Assembly (NCBI GenBank): GCA_031267575.1
Contig: JAIRYN010000042.1
Span: 1 to 59,334, forward strand
DNA from: Synergistaceae bacterium
Lineage (GTDB): Bacteria; Synergistota; Synergistia; Synergistales; Aminobacteriaceae
Reading direction: 5' to 3'
DNA: 59,334 nucleotides
The position numbers and the translations under genes are program-made. The stretch's first letter is position 1. Each line of letters starts with the position of its first letter. The notes beneath the pieces were generated by a model. It saw nothing but the letters and a program-made list of their open reading frames with translations, did no database searches and was not told where the DNA came from. This document shows positions 31,035 through 46,041 of the stretch, piece after piece.

Positions 31035-33086
31035 TTAAAGTTCGAGATCCAAGGTTATATAGAACGCGCGCCCCTCCACTGGATACCAGAGCATTCGGGT
31101 CGGCCCGTTGAGTCCACCGGCGGGGTACATCCTCCAGGAGTCCGCCTCGTTGAAGAGGTCGTCCACGCCCGCGCTCAATGTGGTCGTTGGGCTCAAATTG
31201 TACTTGACGCCTATGTTCACCACGCCCCTCACATCAAAGAGTATGTTCTCCGAGCGGTCCGCGAAGTTCGCCCCCGCGTACCGGTACTCGGCGAACGTCG
31301 AGCCTTTGGCGAACTTTCTCGTAATCCTGGCCGAACCTGCCCACCTAGGACGGTTCGGAAGCCACATCCCATAGTAGCGCGACGAGCCGGAGTCGGGCGT
31401 ATGGTTCTTCGCGTCCATCCACGTCGCCGACAGCGCCAGGTTCCATTTCTCCCAATCGAGATCCGCTCCCACCTCTACGCCTTTGACCTCCGCATGGGCT
31501 ATGTTCGCGTATCGTCCGTACTGTGGGCTGTCCATCAAAAACTCGATAAGGTCGTCCGTATCGCGCCAAAAACCCGAAACCGACGCGTTGACCCGCGCGT
31601 TCCAGGGCTCGTATACTCCGTTCCAGATGAGCCCTAGGTCGAACTGCCGTCCAGTCTCCCATTTCATATCTTCCTCCGCCGGCAGTATAAAGGCCCCGTC
31701 TCCGTAGCGCTCGTACATGTTCGGCGCCCGCGCGTAGGTGCCGAGGGTCCCCTTCACCATCCAGGCGTTGGAGAACTCCTTGGTAAACGCTATCTGCCAC
31801 GTGGCGTGGGACTCCTCGTCCTGTCCGTGCCAGCGCAGGGACGGGGTAGCGAGAAACGACCCGTCGGCCACGAGAGAGATGGTATCCTGAAGGGTGACGC
31901 TGACATCGTTGCGGTTGTATCTGTCCACGCCGCCGAGTTTGCTGAACACCATGTCTCCGTCCACGTCGAGCCGCTCGTCGGAATATTCGGCCAGCATCTC
32001 CAGGAAGTGGCGCTCGCCCAACGGCATGCTGGCGTCGAGGGCCACACCGAGGCGCGAAACACGGTACTCGCTTTTTTCCACATCATAAGAGCCGACGATG
32101 CTGTTCGCGTTTCCGCTCCTGCTGTCGTATTTCTTGTTCTGTCCCGTGTAAGTGAACTCCCAGCCCCAGTTGACGTCCCCTGCGCTCTGCTCCCGCCCCA
32201 GGGAAATATCCCATCGGGCCGTGTCCAGCAGGGCACCCGGCAGGTTGTCCGGGACCCCCGGCTTGTCCCGGCCCGGAGCCTGAGGCGGTAGGTCCCGGTC
32301 GCGCCTCACCCACGATGCCCGCGCCCGCCAGTGCGCGTCCTCCCACTTGAGCATGACATCGGTGTTCTCGAATCCGTTGTAACGTCGCTTACCGGTGTAA
32401 TCGTCCGTGTCGTTGTAGGGCGTGCCGTCGTCGTTCCAATACTCGAAATCGCCCTTATACGTCTCGTAACCGAAGGAGCCGAAGAACTTTCCGTCTCCAA
32501 GCGCATTCGAATGCGTAATGGTCCCCTTGTACCTGCCGAAGGACCCCATGCCCAGGGAGAGGATCGAGCTGGGTTTCTCCGGCGACTTGGTCACGACGCT
32601 TATGACGCCTCCCATCGCCTGGGCCCCGAACCGCGCGGGCACGTATCCCCTGTAGACCTCTATGCGCTCCACGTTATCCGCCGGTATGGCAGATAGGTCG
32701 ACTGCCGCCTCGCTCTGAAGGTTCATGAGGACTCCATCGACGTAGACCGCCACCTGGGACGAGGTGCTGCCCCGCACCGACGCCACCGCGTAGCCGTTAC
32801 GCCCCTGAAGGCGTATAACCCGCAGCCCCGGCACGTCCTCCAGCAGATCGGGCAGGTTCCGCTGCTCCCCGGCCTTCTCCTCCGGCCTGATCACCGTCAC
32901 CATCCCAGGCGACAGGTATTTATCCTCCGCGGCGTCGTAGATCACCGAACCCGTCACGACCTCCTTCGGCAATTCCACCGCCGCCCACGCCGGAACTACC
33001 GAAAATGTTGGAAGCACAGTAAGCGCAATCGAGGCTAATAAAAAAATACAAAAAGTAAACAAAATCGCTGAAAATTTCATCCTCAT
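31035..33086 (-). CDS. TonB-dependent outer-membrane receptor, BtuB-like
   Basis: This 683-residue protein has a signal peptide (about residues 1-35), a plug domain (DLLEDVPGLRVIRLQGRNGY to GAQAMGGVISVVTKSPEK) and a 22-strand-type barrel ending in a Phe/Tyr-containing strand (GRAFYITLDLEL). Such receptors import scarce, large substrates using TonB energy. Its place as the last gene behind a cobalamin riboswitch makes vitamin B12 or a related corrinoid the likely substrate, as for BtuB. GGAGGG precedes the ATG by eight bases. TonB, ExbB, ExbD and the inner-membrane BtuCDF transporter are not in the window. Confidence 0.92.
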   Translation of the reverse strand: MRMKFSAILFTFCIFLLASIALTVLPTFSVVPAWAAVELPKEVVTGSVIYDAAEDKYLSPGMVTVIRPEEKAGEQRNLPDLLEDVPGLRVIRLQGRNGYAVASVRGSTSSQVAVYVDGVLMNLQSEAAVDLSAIPADNVERIEVYRGYVPARFGAQAMGGVISVVTKSPEKPSSILSLGMGSFGRYKGTITHSNALGDGKFFGSFGYETYKGDFEYWNDDGTPYNDTDDYTGKRRYNGFENTDVMLKWEDAHWRARASWVRRDRDLPPQAPGRDKPGVPDNLPGALLDTARWDISLGREQSAGDVNWGWEFTYTGQNKKYDSRSGNANSIVGSYDVEKSEYRVSRLGVALDASMPLGERHFLEMLAEYSDERLDVDGDMVFSKLGGVDRYNRNDVSVTLQDTISLVADGSFLATPSLRWHGQDEESHATWQIAFTKEFSNAWMVKGTLGTYARAPNMYERYGDGAFILPAEEDMKWETGRQFDLGLIWNGVYEPWNARVNASVSGFWRDTDDLIEFLMDSPQYGRYANIAHAEVKGVEVGADLDWEKWNLALSATWMDAKNHTPDSGSSRYYGMWLPNRPRWAGSARITRKFAKGSTFAEYRYAGANFADRSENILFDVRGVVNIGVKYNLSPTTTLSAGVDDLFNEADSWRMYPAGGLNGPTRMLWYPVEGRAFYITLDLEL

Positions 33087-33113
33087 TGGATACCCTCCAG
33101 CTCGAACGCTTAC

Positions 33114-33141
33114 GTTTTATTATCTATGTTTTATTATCTAT
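33114..33141. repeat. 14-bp tandem duplication over a stop codon
   Basis: GTTTTATTATCTAT occurs twice in a row between the propeller gene and the TonB receptor gene. The second copy contains the stop codon of the propeller gene. Confidence 0.85.
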
Positions 33142-35158
33142 TTTTTCTTTTATAAAGCAGTACCGCCAACGTCAGAGCAACGGCTCTGCTCGAAGTGACG
33201 ATACAGCCGCCTGGCATTCCGCCGCTTGACGTTCCGCCTCCGAGGTCTGTTCCGTCGGGACTTGTGCCGTCGGGATTTTCTTCCTCTCCCTCGATCGCCG
33301 CAACGAGGGGGTCGATAACGGTTTCGGCATCCGCGCTCCAGTCATAATCACTGTTGTCCTTGATGGCTACGTTCAACAGGTATTCCCGTGACCCTATCAC
33401 GCCGTGCTGTGGGTCCCCCGACGTATCGGTGAGTATAAAAGTCCCGTGAGTGATGTCGGCCCAAGCGTTTACCTTCCTGAGCTTCTCCGTGGTCCTGCCG
33501 TCGCGCTTCAGCTTCAGCAGCCTCAGATCGTCGAAGTCGTTGCCGGCGAGTTTCGTGCCGGAGAAATTCATCTTCACGCTCACCAATGCCGTTTTGTCCG
33601 AGGAAACGGTCGCCCTAAACACGGGGATGGGCGTAAGGCTGCTCTGTCTGATGACGGCGGATTCTGCCACGGTCAGGCCCTGCCACACGGTCCCGGAGTT
33701 CGCCATCAGTTGGCCCGATGAATTGACATCGAACTTCGGATTGAGGGCGCCAATGTCGGTGGGCAGGCCGGGCAGGCTATCCAGTACGTCGCGCACCGTG
33801 CTATCGGAGGGGACGCTCACGATTTCTAGATTCTCCAGCGCCACGCTCTCCACGTTCGGATCGTCTATTGTGCTCTCGCTGACGGGGGGATCGGTTTCCT
33901 CGCCTCCAGGGGCGTCCGGCGGCGCTTCGTTGAAGAGCGCGACAGAATAGATGTCCTCACCAAGTTCCAGCGGGGTGAAGTCGCGTATCACGTTCCCGTT
34001 CTTGTCGAAGGCAATAAGGTGCGTGCCGGACATGCACCAGACGGTGTCGGATTTGGCGTCCCACGTCACTCCGTCCCACCAGGAGTGGCCGCCGGCGTTA
34101 GTGAAATTGTGCGCGACGACGAGCCCGTCTATGGCCCTTTGGCCGCCCGCCGTCAGGTCGGAAGCGGGTATCTTGAAGAGTCTGCCCTTGAAATCCATGC
34201 CGCTGTCGTAGCCTCCGGCCAGTATAAAGGCCGTTCCGTCGTCCGTGAAGTCCACCCCGTAAGCGCCCCATCCGGCACCAGCGAGAACCCCCGTGACTTG
34301 CTCGAAGTCGAGAACTTGGCGTGGGGGAGCACCGAAGTTGTTCATGTCGATCTCCCAAACGTCGCCGTATACTCCCGTTCCCTGGCGTCCTCCTATGCAG
34401 CCGATGTAGAGTTTGTCACCGTACAGTGCCATAGTGAGGGCGTTTTTGCCTATTTGTACCCCGGAATCTTCGAGAACCGCCTTGCGCCCGGTCGGGGTGA
34501 GCGCTCTGTCGAACTCCACGACTTCGCTTGGGGCGTAGTCCAGTATTTTGCTTGGGTCCGACATGCCGAACATGACGTAGACCTTGTCTCTGTAGACCAT
34601 AACGCCCTCGCCGTGGGGCCAGGCGTAATCAGCGAAGCCAGGGTAGAAAATTTTAGGGTTATGGTATCTGTTTTTGACCGTGTAGTTGTTTCTCATGTCG
34701 ACGCGTATGACCTCGCCCGTGTCCTCCGGCCCCACTGGGTAGCTCTCGTAGGTGACGAGGTACAAGTCGTCTCCATTGGAGGTTATCGCGTGTATGTTCG
34801 ATCCGAAGCCGCTTCTGTTCAGTATGGGGCTGCTGAAGGTCGATGGGGCGTAGATCCCTACGGCGTCGCCGACCCCGGACGCGCGTTCTCGGACGAGGGC
34901 GCGCAGCTCGTTGTTGTGGTCGTGGAAGGAAAAACCCGCCGTGTCGCCATTGAAGTTCGAGACCAGCTTGGCGTTTATCGTATAGCCGCCTCTGCTGTTT
35001 CCTTGTATTACCCCAACTGAACCCGCGTTGTAGTTCGACGCCGCGTAAAAAATATCGGCGTACACCTCGGTTCCCAGCACGGACAGCAGGATGACAAACA
35101 CCGCCAGAGCTGAAAATACGCGCCTGAAATTTTGATTATTTTTATTAAAATCCCGCAC
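33134..35158 (-). CDS. Secreted beta-propeller-like Synerg-CTERM protein
   Basis: The 674-residue protein has a signal peptide (ALAVFVILLSVLGTEVYA), about 380 residues of repeated beta-propeller-like strands (for example ITSNGDDLYLVTYESY, KVYVMFGMSDPSK, GDKLYIGCIGGRQ), a pre-anchor module of about 200 residues, and a Synerg-CTERM-like tail (GGMPGGC, hydrophobic segment, KRKNR). The module matches the end of the next protein upstream (ITHGTFILTD, NVAIKDNSDYDW). The start is GTG 35158 with GGAGGTG eight bases upstream. In Bacteroides the propeller protein BtuG captures B12 for BtuB; this gene sits directly before a BtuB-like receptor behind a B12 riboswitch, so the same job is proposed. Confidence 0.8.
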   Translation of the reverse strand: MRDFNKNNQNFRRVFSALAVFVILLSVLGTEVYADIFYAASNYNAGSVGVIQGNSRGGYTINAKLVSNFNGDTAGFSFHDHNNELRALVRERASGVGDAVGIYAPSTFSSPILNRSGFGSNIHAITSNGDDLYLVTYESYPVGPEDTGEVIRVDMRNNYTVKNRYHNPKIFYPGFADYAWPHGEGVMVYRDKVYVMFGMSDPSKILDYAPSEVVEFDRALTPTGRKAVLEDSGVQIGKNALTMALYGDKLYIGCIGGRQGTGVYGDVWEIDMNNFGAPPRQVLDFEQVTGVLAGAGWGAYGVDFTDDGTAFILAGGYDSGMDFKGRLFKIPASDLTAGGQRAIDGLVVAHNFTNAGGHSWWDGVTWDAKSDTVWCMSGTHLIAFDKNGNVIRDFTPLELGEDIYSVALFNEAPPDAPGGEETDPPVSESTIDDPNVESVALENLEIVSVPSDSTVRDVLDSLPGLPTDIGALNPKFDVNSSGQLMANSGTVWQGLTVAESAVIRQSSLTPIPVFRATVSSDKTALVSVKMNFSGTKLAGNDFDDLRLLKLKRDGRTTEKLRKVNAWADITHGTFILTDTSGDPQHGVIGSREYLLNVAIKDNSDYDWSADAETVIDPLVAAIEGEEENPDGTSPDGTDLGGGTSSGGMPGGCIVTSSRAVALTLAVLLYKRKNR

Positions 35159-35184
35159 TTTGCAAGCACCTCCTAAATATAGGC

Positions 35185-35206
35185 GCAGGGGAGCACGCTC
35201 CCCTGC
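35185..35206 (+). terminator. Perfect 10-bp GC-rich hairpin
   Basis: GCAGGGGAGC and GCTCCCCTGC form a perfect stem around a 2-base loop. On the plus strand TGATTTTT follows, giving a terminator shape against the direction of the operon. On the minus strand it stands just before the ribosome-binding site of the propeller gene and could act as a leader or processing structure. The remaining gap to 35382 contains C-rich and G-rich tracts but no gene. Confidence 0.65.
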
Positions 35207-35382
35207 TGATTTTTGGAGCAATGAGCCCCAAAGGTAATTGTTCAAGCTCAGGGGGGCGGAGCCCGTTCGGCCAAAAGCGACCTCACTGGCCCCCCCGAGA
35301 CCCCCCTAACGAAAATCCTTACCAGGTGAGAATCGGATAAAAAGGGCTTGAACGCTTACCTTTTCTTATTCTCTTAATTCTC

Positions 35383-38300
35383 TTACCGTTTTCTGCGGAT
35401 GTGGAGCGCACAGGCCACAAGCGCCGCCGCCATACCTATTCCGAGGCCGGTGTCGCATCCGCCGCCAGCGCTGGGCCTATCGGAGAAGACGTCATCGGAA
35501 ACGTTCTCGTTGTTGGGGTCGTCGGGGTTGATGTCTCTCGCCTTCGCGATCACGGGCGGATCGGCTATTTCTTTCTCGTAATCGTTCCAATCCAGAACGC
35601 TGTTGTCCTCGATCGCGATGATCAGCAGCTCGTCGCCGTTGATGATGTTGGTGTCCAGCTTGCCGCCCTTAGCGTTGGTGATGATGAACTGGCCATGAAC
35701 TATCTCCGCCAGGGACTCGGCGGGGGTAAACTGGTATGCCTCTCCCTCGGTTGTGAGCTTGAATAGAGCCAGGATGCCGACCGGTGTATCTGCGAAGGTT
35801 TCGAGTGCATTACGGTAGACCACGACCGCGGTGTACCCGGCGGTTTCCACCGTTGCTGTAAAGGCCGGCAGTGCGACCAGGTCCTCCGAGGAGGGCGCGT
35901 ACACCGCTGCCTGTTCGTCGGTCATGTGCTCCCACAAAGTCTCGCGGTTGGCCACGATGTTACCGTCGTCGTCCATCGTTACGGCTTCATATTCCTCCAT
36001 TTTGTCGAGCATTTTGTCGAGCGTCGGGGTGGATAGCTGGTCTAACGTTATGACCTCCGCCGCCGTCAGAACGACGCTCTCTGATGTTGGCGCGTTGCCG
36101 GCTTCTGTGATGGCCGTCGCCAGCTCCTCGAATTTGCCTCCGCCGACCGTACCGGGATCGGGGTCAGTGCCTGGGTCGGGATCAGTGCCCGGATCGGTTC
36201 CTGGGTCAGTCCCTGGGTCGGTACCAGGATCAGTTCCTGGGTCAGTACCGGGGTCAGTGCCCGGATCGGTGCCTGGGTCTACGACTTCTGCTTCCCGTGC
36301 GATGACCACGGAGTACGTTTTGGTATTCTCGCCGTTCGAGGATGTTATCTTCACCGTGAAATCATTCGAGCCTACCTCGACGGGGATGACGTTGCTGTAC
36401 TCGTCATACGTCAGTTCGACGCTTTCGCTCAAGGCTTCACCGCTCAGGGTTATCGTGGAATCGGGGTTGAGGGCCTTGACGTTCAACGCGATGGTCGTCA
36501 CTTCGTTGAGCAGCGTTCCAACATAGGCGGAGCCATCGCCGTTTAGCGCGAGTTTCACGCCACCGGGATTCATGTTTATCGAGTCCAGATCCGCATTTTT
36601 CTCCGGGTCGCCGCCGTTCACGCATTGGATAACATAGATACGCGGCTCGCTTTCGCCGTTCTGAACCACGACACGGACTTTGCGCTCACGAATGCCGTTC
36701 AGGTCGTCCGTTGCGTCGTCGCTGGCGCTTGTTCCGGTGTATTCAGCGGAACCGCCGTAGTACGCTTCCTTATTCACGTAAATATTGTAGTCTTCCGAAG
36801 CGACGACATTCACCCTCACGTCCATTCCACTGAGGTCGAAGCTGGCGAGATAGTGCACGTTACGCCCTATTTCTTCCAGTCGTTCGTCATCCAATACGTT
36901 GACTCCGTTAACGGTGAAGACCGTTGGCGCGGCGGTTATGCCCACAGAGCTTTCCTTGACGTCCGCCGGGTTCACACGGGTAATCGTGCCCAGCTCCGTC
37001 GAGATCTCTCCAAAGGGTGGGTTGTCCGCCACGTCGATGACGTTTTGCAGCTTGATATAGCAGATGCCGTCGGGCAGAACTTCGTCGAGGTTCACCGGCT
37101 TGCCGTCGCGGTCCACCGCCCATGAGAGGTCGAACATGTCGCCCACGTTGCCGCCATTTACGAAACTGGTGATCGCGCCCTGCCGATACGGGTTGTTCGG
37201 CTTGGCATCGACGCTCCAACGTGCTTCTGCGTTCCTCTCAGGAGAACAGTTGGCGACGTCGGCGTAGCCCCAATCGACCTGAACAGGGTATCCATAGCTT
37301 TCGGAGATTTCGTCCTTCTTCAAAATACGCAGGCTGTCGGTCTTTGTGGTTCCATCCCGCAGCATAATGTCGGACACATAAAGCGCTTCGAGTTCATAAT
37401 GTCGCTGTCCGGCCAGGTGGTACCATGTTACGCCGTCATACGATACCTGGACTCCCGCCGGTTCGTTGGGCTTTCCACCCTCGAACGAGTTTCCATAGAC
37501 GATAAAGTCCACGCCCCAAGGGTTGTTCGGGTCGTTCTTGATGGGGTCGTCGTAGTAATAGGTGACGTAACCGCCGATTCCACCGAGGGAAATGTAGTGG
37601 GCAAAATAGGTATACCCAACAAGCGCTCCCTCGCCTACACCTGGGAATTTACCAACTGCGGGGTGGTACTCGATAAACCGGTCGGGGGTAGATACACCGT
37701 CCTCCGGCGAGCGCAGCCTGAAATTGACCGTAAATTCATTCTCGGTTTCCTCGTCTCCGTCCTTACGGTAGGTGATCAGTTTGCGCGTGTCCGTTGTCGA
37801 GTGCTGATTGTCGTATGTCAGGCCATTGACATCAAATTTAGCTAGATAAACGCTTCTGCCACCCGTTGACAATTCCGATAATATTTCTTGCTTATTCTCC
37901 GTCGTTCTTGCCTCGCCCACGTAGACTTCCGTGCCGGGCATCACCGTGATTTCGAGTTCCGCCTGGGTCTGACCTTTATGGACCAGCGCTGTCAGGAAAG
38001 AAGCACCCTTTTTGTATTTGCCGTCGAAGTAGTAGGTCTTGTCGTGGCCCGCTGCCTCGATAATTTCGGCAGAAGGTGTGCTGCCTTCTTTGATGACGTT
38101 GATCTCATAAGAGTGCTCGAATGAGGTGCCGTTGTCCTCGGTCTTCACGCTCAAAACGACTTTTGTCACGTCGTTGGCCAGCGTGACGGCCTGTGTCCAC
38201 GAGTCCCCCGTGGCGGCGACGTCGGTTACGGTTGCCGTTCCGTCCACGAGAACCGTCAACAGAGGATTTGTGTTGCTGTCCTCGGCGGTGATCGCGAACG

Positions 38301-41061
38301 TTACCTCTGTCGTGTCCCGATTAGCATAGAGGTTATATTGCGTGTGATCGGGGTCAAATCCCTCGTCCCCAAATCCGTCCGCGCCGATTTGTACGAATGT
38401 CCCTGCGGAGTAGCCGGAGGAAAGAGGAGTGTCCATGAACGAGGGGTTGCCCGTCACGCCCGTGACCTTGATTTTATTGTTCGGCGCATTCACGTTGACG
38501 ATGAAGAAGTTGAAAACGAAGGATGGGTTGTTCATATCCCACACAACCAGCGCATATCTCCCGTTTTCGGGGAACGGCACGGTCGCTTCGCCGTTTTCAG
38601 TGAAACCCAGCGGTGTTTCCGACAGCTTGCCCGTGTCCAGATCCAGCGTGTAAATCGGAATGGGTTCGGCGACTGGGTTGCCTTCTCCATCGGTCAGCAC
38701 CAGCGTGTGGCTGGAGCCGGGGATCAGGGCAATCTCCTGTTGGTAGTTTTCGCCTTTTACCGAAAGTTTGAAATATTTGCTGCCCTCGGACTTGGGGAAG
38801 AAATGCACTCTGTCGCCCTCGCCCAGGATGGTATCACCAAGTTCGGCAATGGGTTTTTCCTCGCCGTTGACCAAAAAACCGTAACCGCTGACATCGGTAC
38901 CGAAGGCTTTGGTTACCGCGCCCGTGTTGTCGATCACGAGCTGACCTCCCCGCGTGTCCATCCATTCGTACTTCGCTGCGTGTGCGGCGACGAGTGCGTC
39001 CAGTGCGGTGATTTCGCCTATGTACGCTGATTTTACGAAACCATATTTTGACGCGGAGTTAAAGGTTACGTTCAGTCCATCCTTGGTGAAGACGACCGCG
39101 GAACCCTCTTGGGCGGTCCCGCTTACGACGGTATCCGTGTATTTGTAATTATACCCGCCGTTGACAATCCTGTTTTGAAGACTGCTTGTTCCGCTGCTAC
39201 CGATGGGGATGTAGAACGTTACGGTATCTTTCAGGGGCGCGACATTGGTTCCAGAGGCGATTGTGGCGACTGTGATATCTTTCGATAAAAATGTGATTTT
39301 TTCAAGGCTGGAACTTACGAAAGCGTAAGACTTCACATTTGTGACACAAGCCGGAATTGTAAGTTCCTTGAGACTGGTACATCCTTTAAAAGCATTGTAT
39401 GACGAACCACCGCCGTAAATCGTCGGCGCTCCGGTGGGGTTCGGAAATTCTACCTTGTTCAGTTTAGCGCAGCCGTCGAAACGGATATCACCGGTAATTT
39501 CCACCGTATCTCCCAGCCAGATTATTTCTTCAAGTTCCGCGCAGCCGTATACGAAACCGCCGCCGATTTTTTTCACAGTTGCCGGGATTGTGATTTTTGT
39601 CAGTTGCGTATTGGCAAAAGCTCCGGTTCCGATCTCGGTTATCCTTTCGGGAATCGCTATTTCGGTAATCTTGGTGCCCGATAACATGTCGTTTGGAATC
39701 GTGACGATCTTCTCGTTGTTGGGGAAAGTGAAACTTGGCAGCGCGGTATCGTAGAAAGCATTTGCACCTATCGATTCGATGCCGTCGTGCAGCGTCACGG
39801 ATGTTAAATTTCGCGCATTCTGGAACGCGCTGGGGAGTATCTCCGTAACTTTAGCTGGAACAACGATGCTATTAATCGCTGTTCCGTAAAAAGCGTTCGA
39901 GTCTATTGATTCGATATCATCGTGCAACGTCACAGACGTTAACGAAGTTGCGTCGTAAAATGCGCATTTCCCTATTTTCTTAACCGTTTTGGGAATAACT
40001 ATGCTTTCAATTGCTGTCATAGCGAACGCGCTGCCGAATATTTCCGTGCTTCCTTCCTGCAAAGTGACGGTTTTCAGATTGACGCAGCCTCTGAATATGT
40101 TATTGCTGTAGAGGGTGCCATTATTGGCGTAAAAGGAGCCTTCGCCTGAAAGCATGACGGATATCAAATTTGTACAATCTGCGAAAGCGCTTGGGCCAAT
40201 ATTCAACGGCACGTTTGGAAATTCGACCTTGACAAGACCGGTGTTTTGAAATGCGTTTTGAGCAATTGAATAGTCGTAGATATCATCCCTTCCCTGGTAT
40301 GAAAGAGATTCGGGAAAATTGATGTTTTTTAAACTTATGCAACCGGAAAAAGCGTATGGCCCAATTTTTGTTATGCCATCTGGCAGAACGATGTCCTCCA
40401 AGGCGGCACAATCATAAAAAGTGCGCTCTGGAATCGAAGTGGTGCCCGTGGGAATATTGATTGTTTCCAATTTTTTACAATTATAAAACACGTGGTTCCC
40501 ACCAAAAGAAATAAAACCTTCTGGAAGAATTACTTTGGTCAATTCGCCACAATCATAAAAGGCATAACCTCCGATCGTTTTCAAGCCGCCTTCATCAAAT
40601 ATAGCTTCGGTCAGGGCAGCGCAGCCGCGAAAGGCATAGCTCCCAATTGTCTCAAGGCTGTTCGGAAACGTTACTTCAGTCAGCGCCGTGCAGCCAAAGA
40701 AAGTACCTCCGTAGGGCCATAAGCTGTCTCCATCAGATATTTCTTTAATACCTTCGGAAATAGTAACCTTTGTAATCTCTGTGTTTTTGTAGAACAACTT
40801 ATTATCCGCGCCCGGCGTACCGAGGTAGTAGATTGGACGGCCGCTCACAACCGATGGAATGGTAATTTCACCTTCGATTTGCTGTGTATCCGCTTCGACT
40901 TTTGTAAGAACGTTATTGTCGTCCACCGTCCATTTAAGACCGCCGATAACCTCAACCGCGTCGCTGGCGTAAACGGTATTCGCCGCGAACGGCGACAGTA
41001 ACAGAAGAACGATGGCCAGCAGCGCCAACGCCTTGCCATTTCTAATCCGCATTGCATACAT
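35383..41061 (-). CDS. Giant BspA-type surface protein with DUF4430-like domain
   Basis: This 1892-residue secreted protein has a signal peptide (residues 1-32) and BspA/LRR_5 leucine-rich repeats to about 640 (TIGSYAFRGCAALTE-type units). Residues about 660-765 resemble the transcobalamin-like DUF4430 domain (TALDALVAAH, then GYGFLVNGEEKP). A cadherin-like domain follows (870-1000), then a surface domain with HYISLGGIGGYVTYYY and YGNSFEGG near 1160, resembling B12-locus proteins of Bacteroides. A second cadherin-like domain precedes PGTD repeats (about 1597-1635), a pre-anchor module shared with the propeller protein, and a Synerg-CTERM tail (SAGGGCDTGLG, HIRRKR). Corrinoid capture at the cell surface is the proposed role. 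Confidence 0.85.
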   Translation of the reverse strand: MYAMRIRNGKALALLAIVLLLLSPFAANTVYASDAVEVIGGLKWTVDDNNVLTKVEADTQQIEGEITIPSVVSGRPIYYLGTPGADNKLFYKNTEITKVTISEGIKEISDGDSLWPYGGTFFGCTALTEVTFPNSLETIGSYAFRGCAALTEAIFDEGGLKTIGGYAFYDCGELTKVILPEGFISFGGNHVFYNCKKLETINIPTGTTSIPERTFYDCAALEDIVLPDGITKIGPYAFSGCISLKNINFPESLSYQGRDDIYDYSIAQNAFQNTGLVKVEFPNVPLNIGPSAFADCTNLISVMLSGEGSFYANNGTLYSNNIFRGCVNLKTVTLQEGSTEIFGSAFAMTAIESIVIPKTVKKIGKCAFYDATSLTSVTLHDDIESIDSNAFYGTAINSIVVPAKVTEILPSAFQNARNLTSVTLHDGIESIGANAFYDTALPSFTFPNNEKIVTIPNDMLSGTKITEIAIPERITEIGTGAFANTQLTKITIPATVKKIGGGFVYGCAELEEIIWLGDTVEITGDIRFDGCAKLNKVEFPNPTGAPTIYGGGSSYNAFKGCTSLKELTIPACVTNVKSYAFVSSSLEKITFLSKDITVATIASGTNVAPLKDTVTFYIPIGSSGTSSLQNRIVNGGYNYKYTDTVVSGTAQEGSAVVFTKDGLNVTFNSASKYGFVKSAYIGEITALDALVAAHAAKYEWMDTRGGQLVIDNTGAVTKAFGTDVSGYGFLVNGEEKPIAELGDTILGEGDRVHFFPKSEGSKYFKLSVKGENYQQEIALIPGSSHTLVLTDGEGNPVAEPIPIYTLDLDTGKLSETPLGFTENGEATVPFPENGRYALVVWDMNNPSFVFNFFIVNVNAPNNKIKVTGVTGNPSFMDTPLSSGYSAGTFVQIGADGFGDEGFDPDHTQYNLYANRDTTEVTFAITAEDSNTNPLLTVLVDGTATVTDVAATGDSWTQAVTLANDVTKVVLSVKTEDNGTSFEHSYEINVIKEGSTPSAEIIEAAGHDKTYYFDGKYKKGASFLTALVHKGQTQAELEITVMPGTEVYVGEARTTENKQEILSELSTGGRSVYLAKFDVNGLTYDNQHSTTDTRKLITYRKDGDEETENEFTVNFRLRSPEDGVSTPDRFIEYHPAVGKFPGVGEGALVGYTYFAHYISLGGIGGYVTYYYDDPIKNDPNNPWGVDFIVYGNSFEGGKPNEPAGVQVSYDGVTWYHLAGQRHYELEALYVSDIMLRDGTTKTDSLRILKKDEISESYGYPVQVDWGYADVANCSPERNAEARWSVDAKPNNPYRQGAITSFVNGGNVGDMFDLSWAVDRDGKPVNLDEVLPDGICYIKLQNVIDVADNPPFGEISTELGTITRVNPADVKESSVGITAAPTVFTVNGVNVLDDERLEEIGRNVHYLASFDLSGMDVRVNVVASEDYNIYVNKEAYYGGSAEYTGTSASDDATDDLNGIRERKVRVVVQNGESEPRIYVIQCVNGGDPEKNADLDSINMNPGGVKLALNGDGSAYVGTLLNEVTTIALNVKALNPDSTITLSGEALSESVELTYDEYSNVIPVEVGSNDFTVKITSSNGENTKTYSVVIAREAEVVDPGTDPGTDPGTDPGTDPGTDPGTDPGTDPGTDPDPGTDPDPGTVGGGKFEELATAITEAGNAPTSESVVLTAAEVITLDQLSTPTLDKMLDKMEEYEAVTMDDDGNIVANRETLWEHMTDEQAAVYAPSSEDLVALPAFTATVETAGYTAVVVYRNALETFADTPVGILALFKLTTEGEAYQFTPAESLAEIVHGQFIITNAKGGKLDTNIINGDELLIIAIEDNSVLDWNDYEKEIADPPVIAKARDINPDDPNNENVSDDVFSDRPSAGGGCDTGLGIGMAAALVACALHIRRKR

Positions 41062-41142
41062 GCCCCCTCATTTTTTCTCCATACCTAAAAGCTGAGGTAT
41101 GAAGCACCTCAGCCTTGACCGCGCATTTAAGTTCAGTTTTTC

Positions 41143-41991
41143 TTACTTGCCGAGTCTCTTGAGATTTTTGATGATACCGGCCTGCCGCTTTACGCCATCG
41201 ACTTCTCTCACTCCATAGATATAATCAAACGAGAGTCGTTCCCAACTCAGTGTCATTACGAGGTAACCATCGACTATCTTGCCGGGGGTGATATACTCGT
41301 TTGTGCCGTTCGGTCCGTCAAATACAAACTGGTAAATTAGATATTCCGGATAATTGGGATAATGGGGAACATCCGGCTCTTGTGGGGGCGGAGAACCCGG
41401 CGTCAAATTGGGGTTCGGCGACCCTACAAAATACATCCAGCTTTCCCCTTTCCAGTGTATGACGATACTGCCATCCTCCCCAAATTCATAATCGGTACTC
41501 TCATGCCCCGTATACCGCACCTTTTGATTTGGATCATTTGGGTTATTTGAACCTGCCGGGTCCGTAGTTCCGAGTGTTAAGTTCATCAGATATGGCGAAT
41601 CAACAGGATTTGGAGGATTCCCACCAGGGTCGTACCCTTGAAATTCGGGCTCTGTAATATCCCCCCCGGCCTTCCCAGGGAGTAATTCGCTTATTACCCG
41701 CAAAAGTGTGCCCTTCGAGGATATTTCCGCCGGAGTAAAAACAACAGGAACTGCGGCGAACCTGCCTAGTACTTGCGGAATCGCCGTAGGACTCGTGCCG
41801 CTATAAATACCTATATCCTCACCAATCGGAGAACCGACCTCATCCCATTGCTCAAAATACAGCTTTAAACCATAAGTCACGTCTCTTGTCGCCTGTGCCG
41901 CCTTTGCCGCCGCCGGGAACGTGGTATTTGCGCCGAACAGCCGCAAGTTGTTAAAATACCCGTTTGTTACGATTATTTCCTTGCCTGCCAC
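41143..41991 (-). CDS. Unknown protein, first gene of the B12 operon
   Basis: I do not recognise this 282-residue protein. It starts MAGKEIIVTNGYFNNLRLFG and has no signal peptide or membrane segment. The middle is rich in Pro, Asn and Gly (YDPGGNPPNPVDSPY, SPNPNLTPGSPPPQEPDVP) and the ends contain strands with aromatic residues (SWMYFVG, EYLIYQFVFDGPNG). I chose GTG 41991, six bases after AGGAAGGTG; GTG 42000 is too close to that site. It is the first gene after the cobalamin riboswitch and lies 82 bases before the giant surface protein gene. Confidence 0.65.
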   Translation of the reverse strand: MAGKEIIVTNGYFNNLRLFGANTTFPAAAKAAQATRDVTYGLKLYFEQWDEVGSPIGEDIGIYSGTSPTAIPQVLGRFAAVPVVFTPAEISSKGTLLRVISELLPGKAGGDITEPEFQGYDPGGNPPNPVDSPYLMNLTLGTTDPAGSNNPNDPNQKVRYTGHESTDYEFGEDGSIVIHWKGESWMYFVGSPNPNLTPGSPPPQEPDVPHYPNYPEYLIYQFVFDGPNGTNEYITPGKIVDGYLVMTLSWERLSFDYIYGVREVDGVKRQAGIIKNLKRLGK

Positions 41992-41999
41992 TTTTTTCA

Positions 42000-42517
42000 C
42001 CTTCCTAAAATTTTATTCAGACTTTTCGGGCTGCTTGTAAATCTTCTACCCTATTCAGTTTCTCAGGGATATGTCTACGGACAACACCTTCGCGCACCGT
42101 CTCAGTCAAACTCCGACGCCCGCCCGACGGCGCAACGGACATCGGGAACCTTCTCTATCATCTGCCATCGGCGCTCACCTACCTCTCCGGCGCAAAGTGT
42201 TTCAGCCTCGTCAGAATGCTATGCGGACCATCCGCAAAGCTCCCCATGGATAACCGGCAAAAAACCGGATTTATCCGACACTCACCCGCAACCGCCCCCC
42301 ACCACTTTCGATGTCCACTCGGCAACCTCATTGATATCCGCACACTAATCTTCCTTGCTGACTGAGGGCATCGCCTCTTTATCATCTCTCCGTCACTGAA
42401 TTGCGGCATAAGGCACAAGACAACAGCACCACCCTCGCGTAGCGGATAGCTGCTCGTTTTTATTGTTGTATCTTTTTTTATCTTTTTTGGGGGTTGGGGC
42501 TCATTGCCCCGCAAAAG
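42000..42517 (-). other. Long leader between terminator and first gene
   Basis: About 500 bases separate the riboswitch terminator from the first gene. No open frame with a good start is seen. A 111-codon frame at 42179-42514 has unlikely composition. A hairpin GGGGCAATGAGCCCC (42496-42510) directly follows the terminator T-run, and a small CCGG-loop-CCGG hairpin lies near 42255-42270. The region may be a decayed gene or a long regulated leader. Confidence 0.45.
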
Positions 42518-42563
42518 GAAAAAAGAAAAAGGAGACCCCCGCCGTCATACACGAAGGTCTCCC
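42518..42563 (-). terminator. Riboswitch expression-platform terminator
   Basis: On the minus strand GGAGACC and GGTCTCC (extended by further G-C pairs) form a stem, followed by TTTTTCTTTTTT. It lies about 75 bases downstream of the cobalamin aptamer, so B12 binding probably controls premature termination here. Confidence 0.87.
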
Positions 42564-42635
42564 CTAGTAACATCCTTGAGCTTTTTTTACGCGACACACT
42601 ATAGACGCGATAAAAAAAACTTGTGACCTCCGCAC

Positions 42636-42792
42636 ATCCACCAGCCGGTCTCCTGACTCTCGTTCATCCTACTCACGCGCCTTCCCAGCCTTTACTTGAA
42701 AGTAAAAACCAGTGACATTTTGCGCTTTCGTCCCGATTACAGTGGCGGTACCGTTCCGGATTCACACCGGATTCCGCTTGCTGGATTTTCTA
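42636..42792 (-). promoter_or_regulatory. Cobalamin riboswitch
   Basis: Read on the minus strand, this stretch has the conserved blocks of the cobalamin aptamer in order: GGTGTGAATCCGGAACGGT, then CCGCCACTGTAA, a variable stem region, and the B12-box part GAGTCAGGAGACCGGC. Cobalamin riboswitches lower expression of B12 uptake or synthesis genes when the cofactor is plentiful. It is placed between the promoter at 42813-42841 and a terminator at 42518-42563, and controls the four genes down to 31035. Confidence 0.95.
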
Positions 42793-42812
42793 TTAAGTTT
42801 TTAATATATGAA

Positions 42813-42841
42813 ATTATACTCGCTTCTTTAAATTTCGTCAA
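42813..42841 (-). promoter_or_regulatory. Sigma70-type promoter of the B12 operon
   Basis: On the minus strand TTGACG, a 17-base spacer and a perfect TATAAT are visible. The predicted start is about 42806, just before the riboswitch aptamer, leaving no room for another gene between them. Confidence 0.88.
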
Positions 42842-42942: not shown

Positions 42943-45900
42943 CTACTGCGCCGCGACGCCTACCGCCAAATAGGTAGACAGCTTCTCCAGCACATCGTCC
43001 AAGTCCAGAGGTTTGCCCACATGGTCGTTCATCCCCGCCTCGATACATTTTTCGATGTCCTCCCGGAAGACGTTGGCGGTCATAGCGATGATAGGGATCG
43101 TTTTCGCTTTTGGACGATCCGACTCCCGGATGCGGCGAGTCGCTTCCAGCCCGTCCATCTCCGGCATTTGCAGATCCATGAAAATAATATCGTAGCGCTC
43201 CGGGTTTTCGCTGAACATACGTAGAGCGTCCACGCCATTCTCCGCGCAGTCGATTTCCACTTCCGTCGGCTCCAGCAGAGCCAACACGATCTCTCGATTG
43301 ATCTCCACGTCCTCGGCGAGCAGCACGTGACGCCCCGTGAATACGTCCATCGACTTGTCCGTCGCCTCGGACCGCGCGTCCTCGGAGAAGATATCACCGC
43401 TACCGAGACACTCGTTGACACAATCGACAATGTCGGACGAAAACAACGGCTTCGTCAAAAACCGGTCGACGCCGGCTGACTTCGCTTCATCGGCGATCAA
43501 ACTCCATTCTGTGGAAGAAATCATCGTGACGACCGAATAACCGGCCTGCCGCTCCTTGATTTTCTTTGTCAGCTCAATGCCGTTCATTCCAGGCATTTTC
43601 CAATCGATGAAATAGATATCGTGAAAGTTATTTTGTTCGAGCAGCACAGCGGCGGCTTCTCCGCTGGAAGCCACATCGCAAATAATCCCAAGCCTCTGTT
43701 CCATCTCTTTAAAGTACTCGCGAACCTCGGAATCGTCATCCACCACCAGTATACGGACGTTGTTCCAATTTACGCCCCCGGTCAGCAAAGCCTGACGCGC
43801 CGCTTTGCCCCGCGCGGCCTGTATCGTGAAGGTGAAAGTCGCGCCCTTCCCCAGCTCTGACTTGATCTGGATCTGCCCTCCCATCAACTCGACAATCCTT
43901 TTTGATATGGTCAGGCCGAGTCCTGTCCCACCGAATTTGCGGGAGGTACCGCTGTCTGCCTGCTGGAAGGCGTTGAACAGCCGTGCCTGTTGTTCCTCGC
44001 TAATGCCTATTCCAGTGTCGGTCACATCAAATTGAATGGCGCACAGACCGCCTTCCTCTCCAAGAAAACGCGCGTCTAAACGGATAGAGCCGTTTTCCGG
44101 TGTGAACTTCACGGCGTTGGAAAGAAGGTTTGTGATGACCTGCGTCAGCCGCTGATCGTCTCCCAGCAGCCTGTTGGGGATGTCTTTGCCGATGTTCACG
44201 CGGAGAGTTTGATGTTTTTCATCCACCCGGAAGTTGATGACGTTGACAATCCTCTGAAGCATTTTTTCAAAGTCGAAGTCCACAACCGAGAGTTCCAGTT
44301 TGTTGGCCTCGATCTTCGACATGTCCAAAATGTCGTTGACGACACCTAGCAGATGGTGGGAGGCGTTTTCGATTTTCTCAAAAGAGTAGTCCTTTTTTTC
44401 CGCGTCGGATGCCGATTTGCCGATAGACATCATACCGATGATGGCGTTGAGGGGTGTGCGTATTTCATGGCTCATATTGGATAAGAACTCGCTCTTAGCC
44501 CGACTCGACTCCTCCGCCTGGTCCTTCGCGATGACGAGCTGTTCGTTTAAACGGTTCAGTTTGTCGTTCTTTTCCTCCAGTTCTCTGGCGTAGTTCTGCA
44601 ATTTTTTGACGAGGTCGTCGATCTTTTCGGCCATGACCTTGAACGCTCTGGATAAAACGTCGATTTCATCACTACCCTGGCCCGATGGCACTTCGACGTC
44701 GAAATTTCCCTCTCCTATAGTTTTGGCGGTATTGGCCAGCACCAGGATCGGCTTCGTGACACTTCTCGCGATCAAGTATAAAAGGAAAGCGATCAGGCAG
44801 ATCGAAACGGCAGATACGCCTAAAGTGTAATTTCGGACGCCATTGGCGGCTTTAAGGACATCGACCATGGGGATACTCACCACGACCGACCAAGGCTTCG
44901 TGATTTCGCTGAACTGAATCGGCATGTATATTGTATAAAAATCCTTGCTGCTCGATATGTACATTTCGCCGTTTTTGATGGCGTTTTTCGCTTCCATCGC
45001 GTATTGCTGTCTGCTTGGATCCACCTGAAGCATTTCTCCGGCCATTTGGGGCGAAAGGAGCGACATATCCAGCTCGGTTTGACCGGGATTCGCCGCGTAG
45101 ACCTCCAGATTGTCAATGAATTTGAGAAGATTGCCGTATTCCTCGGTCTTGGCCTCATCCATCGGGTCTGGAGCGGGGGTTTTTTCCACGTAGGCTTTCG
45201 CGTGACGTATTGTTTCGACGACCTTGGGAGCGTTATTGGGAGTACTGTTATAAGCGTTGTACGTTAGCATATCGTACAGCAGCGTTTTCGTTAGATCCTG
45301 GGCGAGATATTGCGTGTTGGGGTGCGCCACGATGACACCGGCGTTCGAAAAAATCTGCGTAAATTCGCCTCCTTCGTAGGTATTCACCTTCGACACCATC
45401 TCCTGGAGCTTGTCGAGAACGATGTCGGAGGCGATGATGCCGATAAAATCACCTTTATGAAGGATAGGGAAAATCAAGCTGGCCAGCATGACAAAGTGGC
45501 CCTGTATCTGATACGGGTAAGGATCGGTGATGTATTCTCGTTTCGTTTCTTTGGGAACGATGTACCAATCGGCGATATCAATGTCGTATAAGGGCTCGAC
45601 CTCAATGTTGCCTCCAAGTTTGTTCCAGTAGGGTGAGTATCTTCCCGTCTCGTCGTATGCCGGTTTTTGCCCGGCGTACCGTTCGTCCCGCCCATCCAAC
45701 ATATTTGGGTCGTAAGCGATGCAAAAGGCAGTGATGTACTCCTTTTGGGCAAGGGCATTTCTCAGGATATCGTTCATCATATCCCGGTCGGTGAGGTTGT
45801 GGTCTTTCATAGTCTCGAACACGGTCGCCAAGGTCTCCGAAGTCACTCGCGCGCCTTGCAGTTCCGCCTTGATCTCGTTTTTGTATTTTTTCGCCATTTC

Positions 45901-46041
45901 CTCAGCCAAGCTGAAGGCGTCTTTTTTCGCCAATTTGACGCTTCTATCGGAGACGATCAAGGTAACCGCTAAAAAAGAGACAACGACGACAGCAGTGACC
46001 AAGGAAAATATTTGATTTTTCAAATTCAAGTTCTTAAACAT
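42943..46041 (-). CDS. Hybrid sensor histidine kinase with two receiver domains
   Basis: The 1032-residue protein has a membrane helix (residues 10-30), a large double-Cache sensor domain to about 400, a second helix (LGVSAVSICLIAFLLYLIA), HAMP, a coiled coil, HisKA with the phosphorylated His in NMSHEIRTPLNAIIGM (about 524), and an ATPase domain (TGIGISEEQQARLF, GGTGLGLTISK). Two receiver domains follow, with Asp in YFIDWKMPGMNG (about 814) and in IIFMDLQMPEMDG (about 955). There is no output domain. It ends 102 bases upstream of the B12-operon promoter and on the same strand, so they are separate units. The ligand is unknown. Confidence 0.95.
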   Translation of the reverse strand: MFKNLNLKNQIFSLVTAVVVVSFLAVTLIVSDRSVKLAKKDAFSLAEEMAKKYKNEIKAELQGARVTSETLATVFETMKDHNLTDRDMMNDILRNALAQKEYITAFCIAYDPNMLDGRDERYAGQKPAYDETGRYSPYWNKLGGNIEVEPLYDIDIADWYIVPKETKREYITDPYPYQIQGHFVMLASLIFPILHKGDFIGIIASDIVLDKLQEMVSKVNTYEGGEFTQIFSNAGVIVAHPNTQYLAQDLTKTLLYDMLTYNAYNSTPNNAPKVVETIRHAKAYVEKTPAPDPMDEAKTEEYGNLLKFIDNLEVYAANPGQTELDMSLLSPQMAGEMLQVDPSRQQYAMEAKNAIKNGEMYISSSKDFYTIYMPIQFSEITKPWSVVVSIPMVDVLKAANGVRNYTLGVSAVSICLIAFLLYLIARSVTKPILVLANTAKTIGEGNFDVEVPSGQGSDEIDVLSRAFKVMAEKIDDLVKKLQNYARELEEKNDKLNRLNEQLVIAKDQAEESSRAKSEFLSNMSHEIRTPLNAIIGMMSIGKSASDAEKKDYSFEKIENASHHLLGVVNDILDMSKIEANKLELSVVDFDFEKMLQRIVNVINFRVDEKHQTLRVNIGKDIPNRLLGDDQRLTQVITNLLSNAVKFTPENGSIRLDARFLGEEGGLCAIQFDVTDTGIGISEEQQARLFNAFQQADSGTSRKFGGTGLGLTISKRIVELMGGQIQIKSELGKGATFTFTIQAARGKAARQALLTGGVNWNNVRILVVDDDSEVREYFKEMEQRLGIICDVASSGEAAAVLLEQNNFHDIYFIDWKMPGMNGIELTKKIKERQAGYSVVTMISSTEWSLIADEAKSAGVDRFLTKPLFSSDIVDCVNECLGSGDIFSEDARSEATDKSMDVFTGRHVLLAEDVEINREIVLALLEPTEVEIDCAENGVDALRMFSENPERYDIIFMDLQMPEMDGLEATRRIRESDRPKAKTIPIIAMTANVFREDIEKCIEAGMNDHVGKPLDLDDVLEKLSTYLAVGVAAQ

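Follow-up and report, generated by a model that had tools for sequence, protein, structure and literature searches.

Contig JAIRYN010000042.1 (C42) belongs to the 2.76 Mb, 97% complete genome of a Synergistaceae bacterium (GCA_031267575.1). It was analysed over its full length of 59,334 nucleotides, hereafter the window, and contains a four-gene operon that most probably (about 0.8) encodes a cobamide-repressed outer-membrane vitamin B12 acquisition system of Synergistota. The following elements are arranged in this order on the minus strand: a promoter; a cobalamin aptamer; an intrinsic terminator; and genes for proteins of 285, 1892, 703 and 683 amino acids, designated P0004, P0003, P0002 and P0001, respectively (Table 1). 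A gut bacterium of a little-studied phylum appears to possess a B12-controlled operon with probable relatives of the proteins by which Bacteroides grabs this vitamin. All parts of the operon named in a preliminary description of this DNA were recovered in their places, and its reading as a riboswitch-controlled B12 uptake operon is supported by the aptamer and by a recurring gene neighbourhood.

The cobalamin riboswitch RF00174 was the sole Rfam match in the window, with a score well above the gathering score of the family. The promoter agreed with the sigma-70 consensus at 11 positions, while the best candidates in 50 shuffles of the same stretch reached at most 10. The terminator is likely the expression platform of the riboswitch; a hairpin and a T-run are also present in the orthologous leader of another Synergistota genome, G152. 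Strong promoter, aptamer and terminator had all been proposed in the preliminary description, and each of them withstood these searches. The promoter extends over some 25 positions at the beginning of the covariance-model match. Therefore, the RNA probably begins near position 42806, and a forced global fit is the probable cause of the 5' edge of the RF00174 match. Many other cobalamin leaders of Synergistota also have a strong promoter, with the -10 box ending near the start of the match. No further RNA element was detected in Rfam between the terminator and gene 1 at E-values up to 5.

The survey of 188 Synergistota genomes revealed relatives of P0002 in 46 of them, a count that includes matches to a shared C-terminal domain alone. 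A narrower search of genome contigs returned 11 loci, all from metagenome-assembled genomes of Synergistaceae. The DNA around 37 Synergistota propellers related to P0002 was scanned for riboswitches. An RF00174 match was located within 8 kb of 28 propellers (about 2% per locus are expected by chance), and in 27 of these 28 cases the riboswitch was upstream on the same strand. Propeller loci devoid of a riboswitch were mostly on short contigs. A P0001-like receptor gene follows directly behind the propeller gene, on the same strand and at a distance of no more than 200 bp, in 24 of the 37 loci. The adjacency of propeller and TonB-dependent receptor noted earlier is, therefore, a recurrent gene order in Synergistota. 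The genomes G096 and G097 display the array riboswitch-btuF-btuD-btuC-exbB-(exbD)-tonB-propeller-receptor in one row, and variations of the btuFDC-exbB-tonB-propeller-receptor cluster occur in G164, G043, G042, and G155.

The source genome itself has a second locus of this kind on contig C30. Here, riboswitch, btuF, btuD, btuC, exbB and tonB are located on one strand, and a second propeller and a second receptor on the other; this receptor is 64% identical to P0001, while the propeller is divergent. The third and last riboswitch of the genome precedes the gene of methylmalonyl-CoA mutase (L085, 3683-6279). The detected B12 regulon is composed of two uptake loci and one enzyme. CbiD was not found in the 97%-complete genome, as compared to its presence in 112 of the 188 Synergistota genomes; de novo synthesis of cobalamin is, therefore, probably impossible in this bacterium. 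Taken by genomic context, the B12 role of the operon is strongly supported.

Further propeller loci were noted. In L071 (154-5971), L073 (2371-7477) and L074 (455-5512), a cobalamin riboswitch is followed by genes for a 2-hydroxyglutaryl-CoA dehydratase D-like protein and a BcrAD/BadFG ATPase, and the propeller gene is present as well. For L071 and L074, the identities of the former two proteins, an unusual reductase pair for a B12 regulon, were checked with Pfam. Genome G157 encodes several propeller copies (L088, 5368-8916; L065, 2-2851), some of which are fused to extra domains (949 and 1182 amino acids).

The 1892-residue protein P0003 is composed of a signal peptide, BspA-type leucine-rich repeats (LRR), an unnamed region, cadherin-like sandwiches, a BtuH-type domain, a Synergistota C-terminal domain, and a tail. 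A profile built only from five Synergistota copies of the BtuH-type domain matched, in the PDB, 8BLW chain B (BtuGH; E 3.7e-21) and 7BIZ (BtuH2; E 1.1e-17). The latter match spans profile positions 1-273 of 283, i.e., the homology extends over the full length of the B12-binding domain. Comparison of the P0003-type domain with Bacteroidota BtuH by hhalign gave a probability of 99.9% (E 5e-32). Judged by these profiles, this domain, which had been missed in the preliminary description, is a homologue of the domain with which BtuH binds B12; BtuH both binds the vitamin and aids its uptake (PMC8941943). P0003 would, by homology, bind B12 as well. The domain is rare in the phylum (seven of 188 genomes), whereas the propeller-receptor pair is common. 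BtuH homologues were known earlier from three Firmicutes (PMC8941943).

A tblastn search with the BtuH-type stretch matched five plasmid records, all from Bacteroidota. A cobalamin riboswitch was present just upstream of the homologue in all four plasmid loci examined, and a TonB receptor plus a DUF5074 or YncE propeller were encoded beside it in all three annotated ones. One locus reproduces the gene order of the B. thetaiotaomicron operon (PMC12751083), with the homologue in the place of BtuH. The giant LRR protein had been regarded as the added novelty of the system. This view was not upheld: the repeats are, on sequence grounds, accessory, because the G152 orthologue has them only weakly and a G157 protein with the same BtuH-type domain lacks them.

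The 703-residue protein P0002 did not match any Pfam family, and Pfam DUF5074 (PF16819) was found neither in P0002 nor elsewhere in the genome. In a search of the PDB with a profile of 27 Synergistota propellers, three BtuG chains ranked on top (E 4.8e-8, 4.8e-8, and 2.3e-7), and the structures of E. coli YncE and gluconolactonase were absent from the matches at E-values up to 10. A three-sequence BtuG profile was matched by hhalign colinearly and with a probability of 95.9%. The top seven chains retrieved by VIA-align with the AlphaFold2 model of P0002 were all BtuG (Z 27.5-28.3). The best of them, 8BN0 (Z 28.3; root-mean-square deviation 2.8; 304 aligned residues), agrees with a seven-bladed fold like that of BtuG2. 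The AlphaFold2 model of residues 640-1380 of P0003, made from a three-sequence alignment, had a predicted local distance difference test score (pLDDT) of 42.7, and no claim on its fold was drawn. The P0002 propeller is probably a distant relative of BtuG. By analogy, it probably works in a BtuG-like manner and is predicted to bind cobamides. Filing P0002 as BtuG was rejected, since DUF5074 and lipoprotein features are lacking.

A perfect 9-bp inverted repeat, GCAGGGGAG/CTCCCCTGC, is located between genes 2 and 3 (35185-35206). It may be a partial terminator or a processing site that sets a different expression of propeller and receptor. Judged from this hairpin and the signal peptide, the true start of P0002 is probably the GTG at 35158.

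The product of the last gene, P0001, possesses a TonB plug (Pfam E 8e-20) and a barrel (E 1e-30). Among NCBIfam families, it matched the B12 receptor TIGR01779 best (E 2.6e-45), and its best PDB matches are structures of E. coli BtuB. The assignment of B12 as its cargo, and its identity as BtuB, rest on the gene neighbourhood and not on the tree considered below.

As to cell-surface anchoring, a lipobox-like motif was detected in one of the 37 propellers and not in P0002, which displays no lipoprotein export signal. The N-terminal signal region of P0003 contains no Cys, and the protein ends with a GGC tail; it does not, therefore, have the make-up of a surface lipoprotein. All 31 complete propellers, P0002 included, terminate with (Gly/Ser)-Gly-Cys or Ser-Ser-Cys, after which come a hydrophobic segment and residues that are mostly basic. 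We infer that the surface proteins are tethered by this C-terminal Gly-Cys tail and not by an N-terminal lipid, which agrees with the earlier idea that lipoprotein anchors are replaced by C-terminal tails. These had been named Synerg-CTERM tails. Their tripartite structure is visible in the sequence, but the cut-off of TIGR04564 (22.5 bits) was missed by P0003 (18.6 bits) and P0002 (no match); a G164 propeller scored 33.4 bits. The MYXO-CTERM/myxosortase system of Myxococcus is similar in combining an N-terminal signal peptide with a tail in which an invariant Cys is followed by a hydrophobic helix and a basic end. The invariant Cys of MYXO-CTERM is required for cleavage and surface anchoring (PMC11980579). 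It is a guess that the Synergistota tails are lipidated. Preceding the sorting tail is a C-terminal domain without a Pfam name, which is common to P0002, P0003 and the products of L083 (4739-9394) and L103 (7580-9172); perhaps, it is a cell-envelope anchoring domain.

Outside Synergistota, P0001 found its best match among plasmids in pSPTER (L148, 4937-13569) of the termite-gut bacterium Sporomusa termitida. The propeller gave no tblastn match among plasmids; its S. termitida counterpart came to light through the neighbouring receptor. Three tandem cobalamin riboswitches (101-106 bits) precede an OmpH-like gene in this locus. Next come the genes of a 1776-residue protein, in which an autotransporter beta-barrel is joined to a BtuB-like TonB receptor barrel, and a 444-residue protein annotated as hypothetical, which scored 82 bits with the Synergistota propeller profile and appears to be a BtuG-like propeller. 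The pair is thus, as far as can be read from the sequences, present in a second phylum outside Bacteroidota.

Table 1. Features of the putative B12 acquisition operon and its leader. aa, amino acids; pTM, predicted template modelling score.
Feature	Position	Strand	Remarks
Sigma-70 type promoter TTGACG-17-TATAAT	42813..42841	-	11/12 consensus matches
Cobalamin riboswitch aptamer RF00174	42626..42838	-	80.0 bits; gathering score 31.5; E 4.1e-18
Intrinsic terminator	42528..42565	-	15-pair hairpin, then T-run
Gene 1 (P0004)	41143..42000	-	285 aa; no Pfam, NCBIfam or PDB match
Gene 2 (P0003)	35383..41061	-	1892-aa surface protein
LRR_5 repeats of P0003	39202..40884	-	Residues ~60-620; Pfam LRR_5 E 4.8e-115
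BtuH-type B12-binding domain (predicted) of P0003	36967..37668	-	234 aa; profile versus PDB, hhalign
Gene 3 (P0002)	33134..35245	-	703 aa from TTG; secreted BtuG-like propeller protein
Beta-propeller domain of P0002	33890..35059	-	AlphaFold2 pLDDT 84.9, pTM 0.88
C-terminal domain of P0002	33155..33889	-	30% identity to the P0003 C-terminus, at most 42% to other proteins of the genome
C-terminal sorting tail (predicted) of P0002	33137..33223	-	Gly-Gly-Cys, hydrophobic segment, basic end
Gene 4 (P0001)	31035..33086	-	683 aa; BtuB-like TonB-dependent receptor

The operon would work as follows. When B12 is plentiful, the aptamer would bind it and transcription would stop at the terminator; when B12 is scarce, termination would be lifted and the four genes expressed. 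P0003 would catch cobamides via its BtuH-type domain, exposed on a long stalk of LRR and beta-sandwiches. The P0002 propeller may cover the receptor as a lid, or serve there as a docking platform, in the manner of BtuG, and deliver the vitamin to P0001, which would move it through the outer membrane, driven by TonB. BtuF, BtuC and BtuD from the second locus, encoded together with ExbB and TonB, would then carry B12 into the cytoplasm. This scheme takes its order of catcher, lid and receptor from the model for Bacteroides (PMC10404256). More tentatively, and at somewhat below even odds, Synergistota and Negativicutes may share a lid-capped B12 importer that follows the BtuG-BtuB principle without lipoproteins. 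The lid of Synergistota would be tethered C-terminally through a modified Cys, and this operon would add an LRR arm with a BtuH-type forward catcher.

Several observations weigh against a B12 acquisition system of this design. Of the B12-contact residues of BtuH2, as taken from PMC8941943, Asn399 and Phe401 are retained in P0003, but His476, Trp511 and Trp577 are not, and Gln333, retained in the other four Synergistota copies, is replaced by Lys; Trp577 is also missing from the BtuH homologue of Persicobacter. P0001 reached 155.1 bits on TIGR01779, a quarter of the equivalog cut-off of 599.7. In a small maximum-likelihood tree it fell into a clade of its own, which includes the Sporomusa receptor, and joined the BtuB of neither E. 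coli nor Bacteroides. Clear placement among siderophore receptors, which had been named in advance as a ground for giving up the B12 reading, was not seen in this small panel either. P0004 lacks an export signal although its operon partners are exported. Alignment of the propeller with a single BtuG sequence by hhalign gave a probability of only 6.8%, YVTN, gluconolactonase and YncE propellers followed BtuG in VIA-align at Z 26-27, i.e., by a margin of only 1-2 units, and the first Foldseek match of P0002 was XusB, a propeller lipoprotein that binds the siderophore ferrichrome.

The latter match raises the question of whether the operon, though regulated by B12, transports another cargo, for instance heme, a siderophore or a complex of cobalt, with the propeller acting as XusB does with XusA. 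The XusA-XusB siderophore piracy system of Bacteroides also combines a propeller with a TonB receptor, and P0001 is about equally close to CirA (24.7% identity) and BtuB (22.1%). The receptor also has sub-threshold NCBIfam matches to siderophore receptors, and the LRR region resembles HupY. We regard this as improbable: the cargo of XusA-XusB is iron-siderophore, whereas the recurring partners in Synergistota are cobalamin riboswitches and homologues of BtuF, BtuC and BtuD, the same operon holds the BtuH-type domain, and BtuB is the top match of the receptor in both NCBIfam and PDB. Slightly more improbable still is that the surface proteins serve chiefly as adhesins or stalks that bring the cell close to B12 sources or to other cells, with the receptor alone moving B12 and the propeller being structural. 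P0003 does contain domains that typify surface adhesins, LRR_5 and cadherin-like ones, and the partial retention of the BtuH contacts would fit; orthologues, however, conserve the BtuH-type domain and not the LRR, and the propeller-receptor pair stands in most loci without an LRR protein.

Within the preferred reading, a B12 acquisition system, the likeness to BtuG could also be convergent, i.e., a YVTN/YncE-type propeller was recruited independently beside a receptor. The small structural margin over other propellers, the lack of a DUF5074 match and the different lineages of the receptors are in line with this origin, which appears unlikely but by no means negligible. The lead of three BtuG chains in the PDB profile search, from which YncE and gluconolactonase were absent, the colinear match to the three-sequence BtuG profile, and the clearly homologous BtuH-type domain nearby argue against it. 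The former characterization of the operon as a separately built equivalent is not supported and calls for revision, given the homology of the BtuH-type domain to 7BIZ and the probable distant relationship of the propeller to BtuG. At the same time, the set is, by its sequences, not simply copied from Bacteroidota, because the receptor belongs to a lineage other than that of Bacteroides BtuB.

The BtuB-BtuG-BtuH loci of Bacteroides (PMC6143338, PMC8941943, PMC10404256) share the following features with the system of this genome: a cobalamin riboswitch; a TonB receptor beside a seven-bladed propeller; a BtuH-type domain at the end of a beta-sandwich chain; and more than one locus per genome. In contrast to them, the Synergistota proteins possess C-terminal Gly-Cys tails in place of a lipobox or lipoprotein export signal, the BtuH-type domain is embedded in a 1892-residue LRR protein, the receptor is of another lineage, and the propeller falls outside Pfam DUF5074. 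Unlike in Bacteroides, no match to DUF4465 (BtuJ) was found in the Synergistota operon. BtuGH of B. thetaiotaomicron (BT_1490; 8BLW chain B) also brings propeller and BtuH-type domain together in one operon, but the two are fused there and separate proteins here. E. coli BtuB-BtuFCD is similar in comprising a receptor, a periplasmic binding protein and an ABC importer, but lacks surface capture proteins, and its receptor is ~22% identical and belongs to a different clade.

No B12 capture system of Synergistota was found in the literature searched, in agreement with the earlier statement that no described system of this composition was known. BtuG was reported as exclusive to Bacteroidetes (PMC6143338), and the same seemed to hold for lipoprotein-capped TonB transporters (PMC10404256). 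The Synergistota counterpart, which is widespread and associated with riboswitches, and its Sporomusa relative suggest that surface B12 capture is not confined to one phylum, and both statements would then need revision. If the lid-capped importer proposed above is real, surface lids on TonB receptors would be no invention of Bacteroidota, and the hinge would be placed at the opposite end of the protein. Nature would here provide a test of the lid model, namely, whether an N-terminal lipid tether is needed or a C-terminal one is enough. Our analysis also provides a likely function for a protein family without a Pfam name, and hints that B12 is an object of competition in guts, including those of termites.

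The first protein of the operon, P0004, had been counted among three secreted proteins encoded upstream of the receptor, but a signal peptide was not found in any reading frame. P0004 had no match in Pfam, NCBIfam or PDB, and a single-sequence search returned no homologue, not even from G152 at E-values up to 1. The G152 operon also opens with a protein of 247 amino acids, which likewise starts without a signal peptide and is 29% identical to P0004 in a MAFFT alignment. Position and alignment make it probable that both are related. Identification of P0004 and of P0003 residues 640-860 with DUF4430/transcobalamin was based on resemblance by eye and was dropped; no Pfam match to DUF4430 (PF14478) occurred anywhere in the genome. 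With nothing tying it to the B12 system, a gene for a hybrid histidine kinase with a Cache sensor and two receiver domains is located directly upstream of the operon on the same strand (42943-46041).

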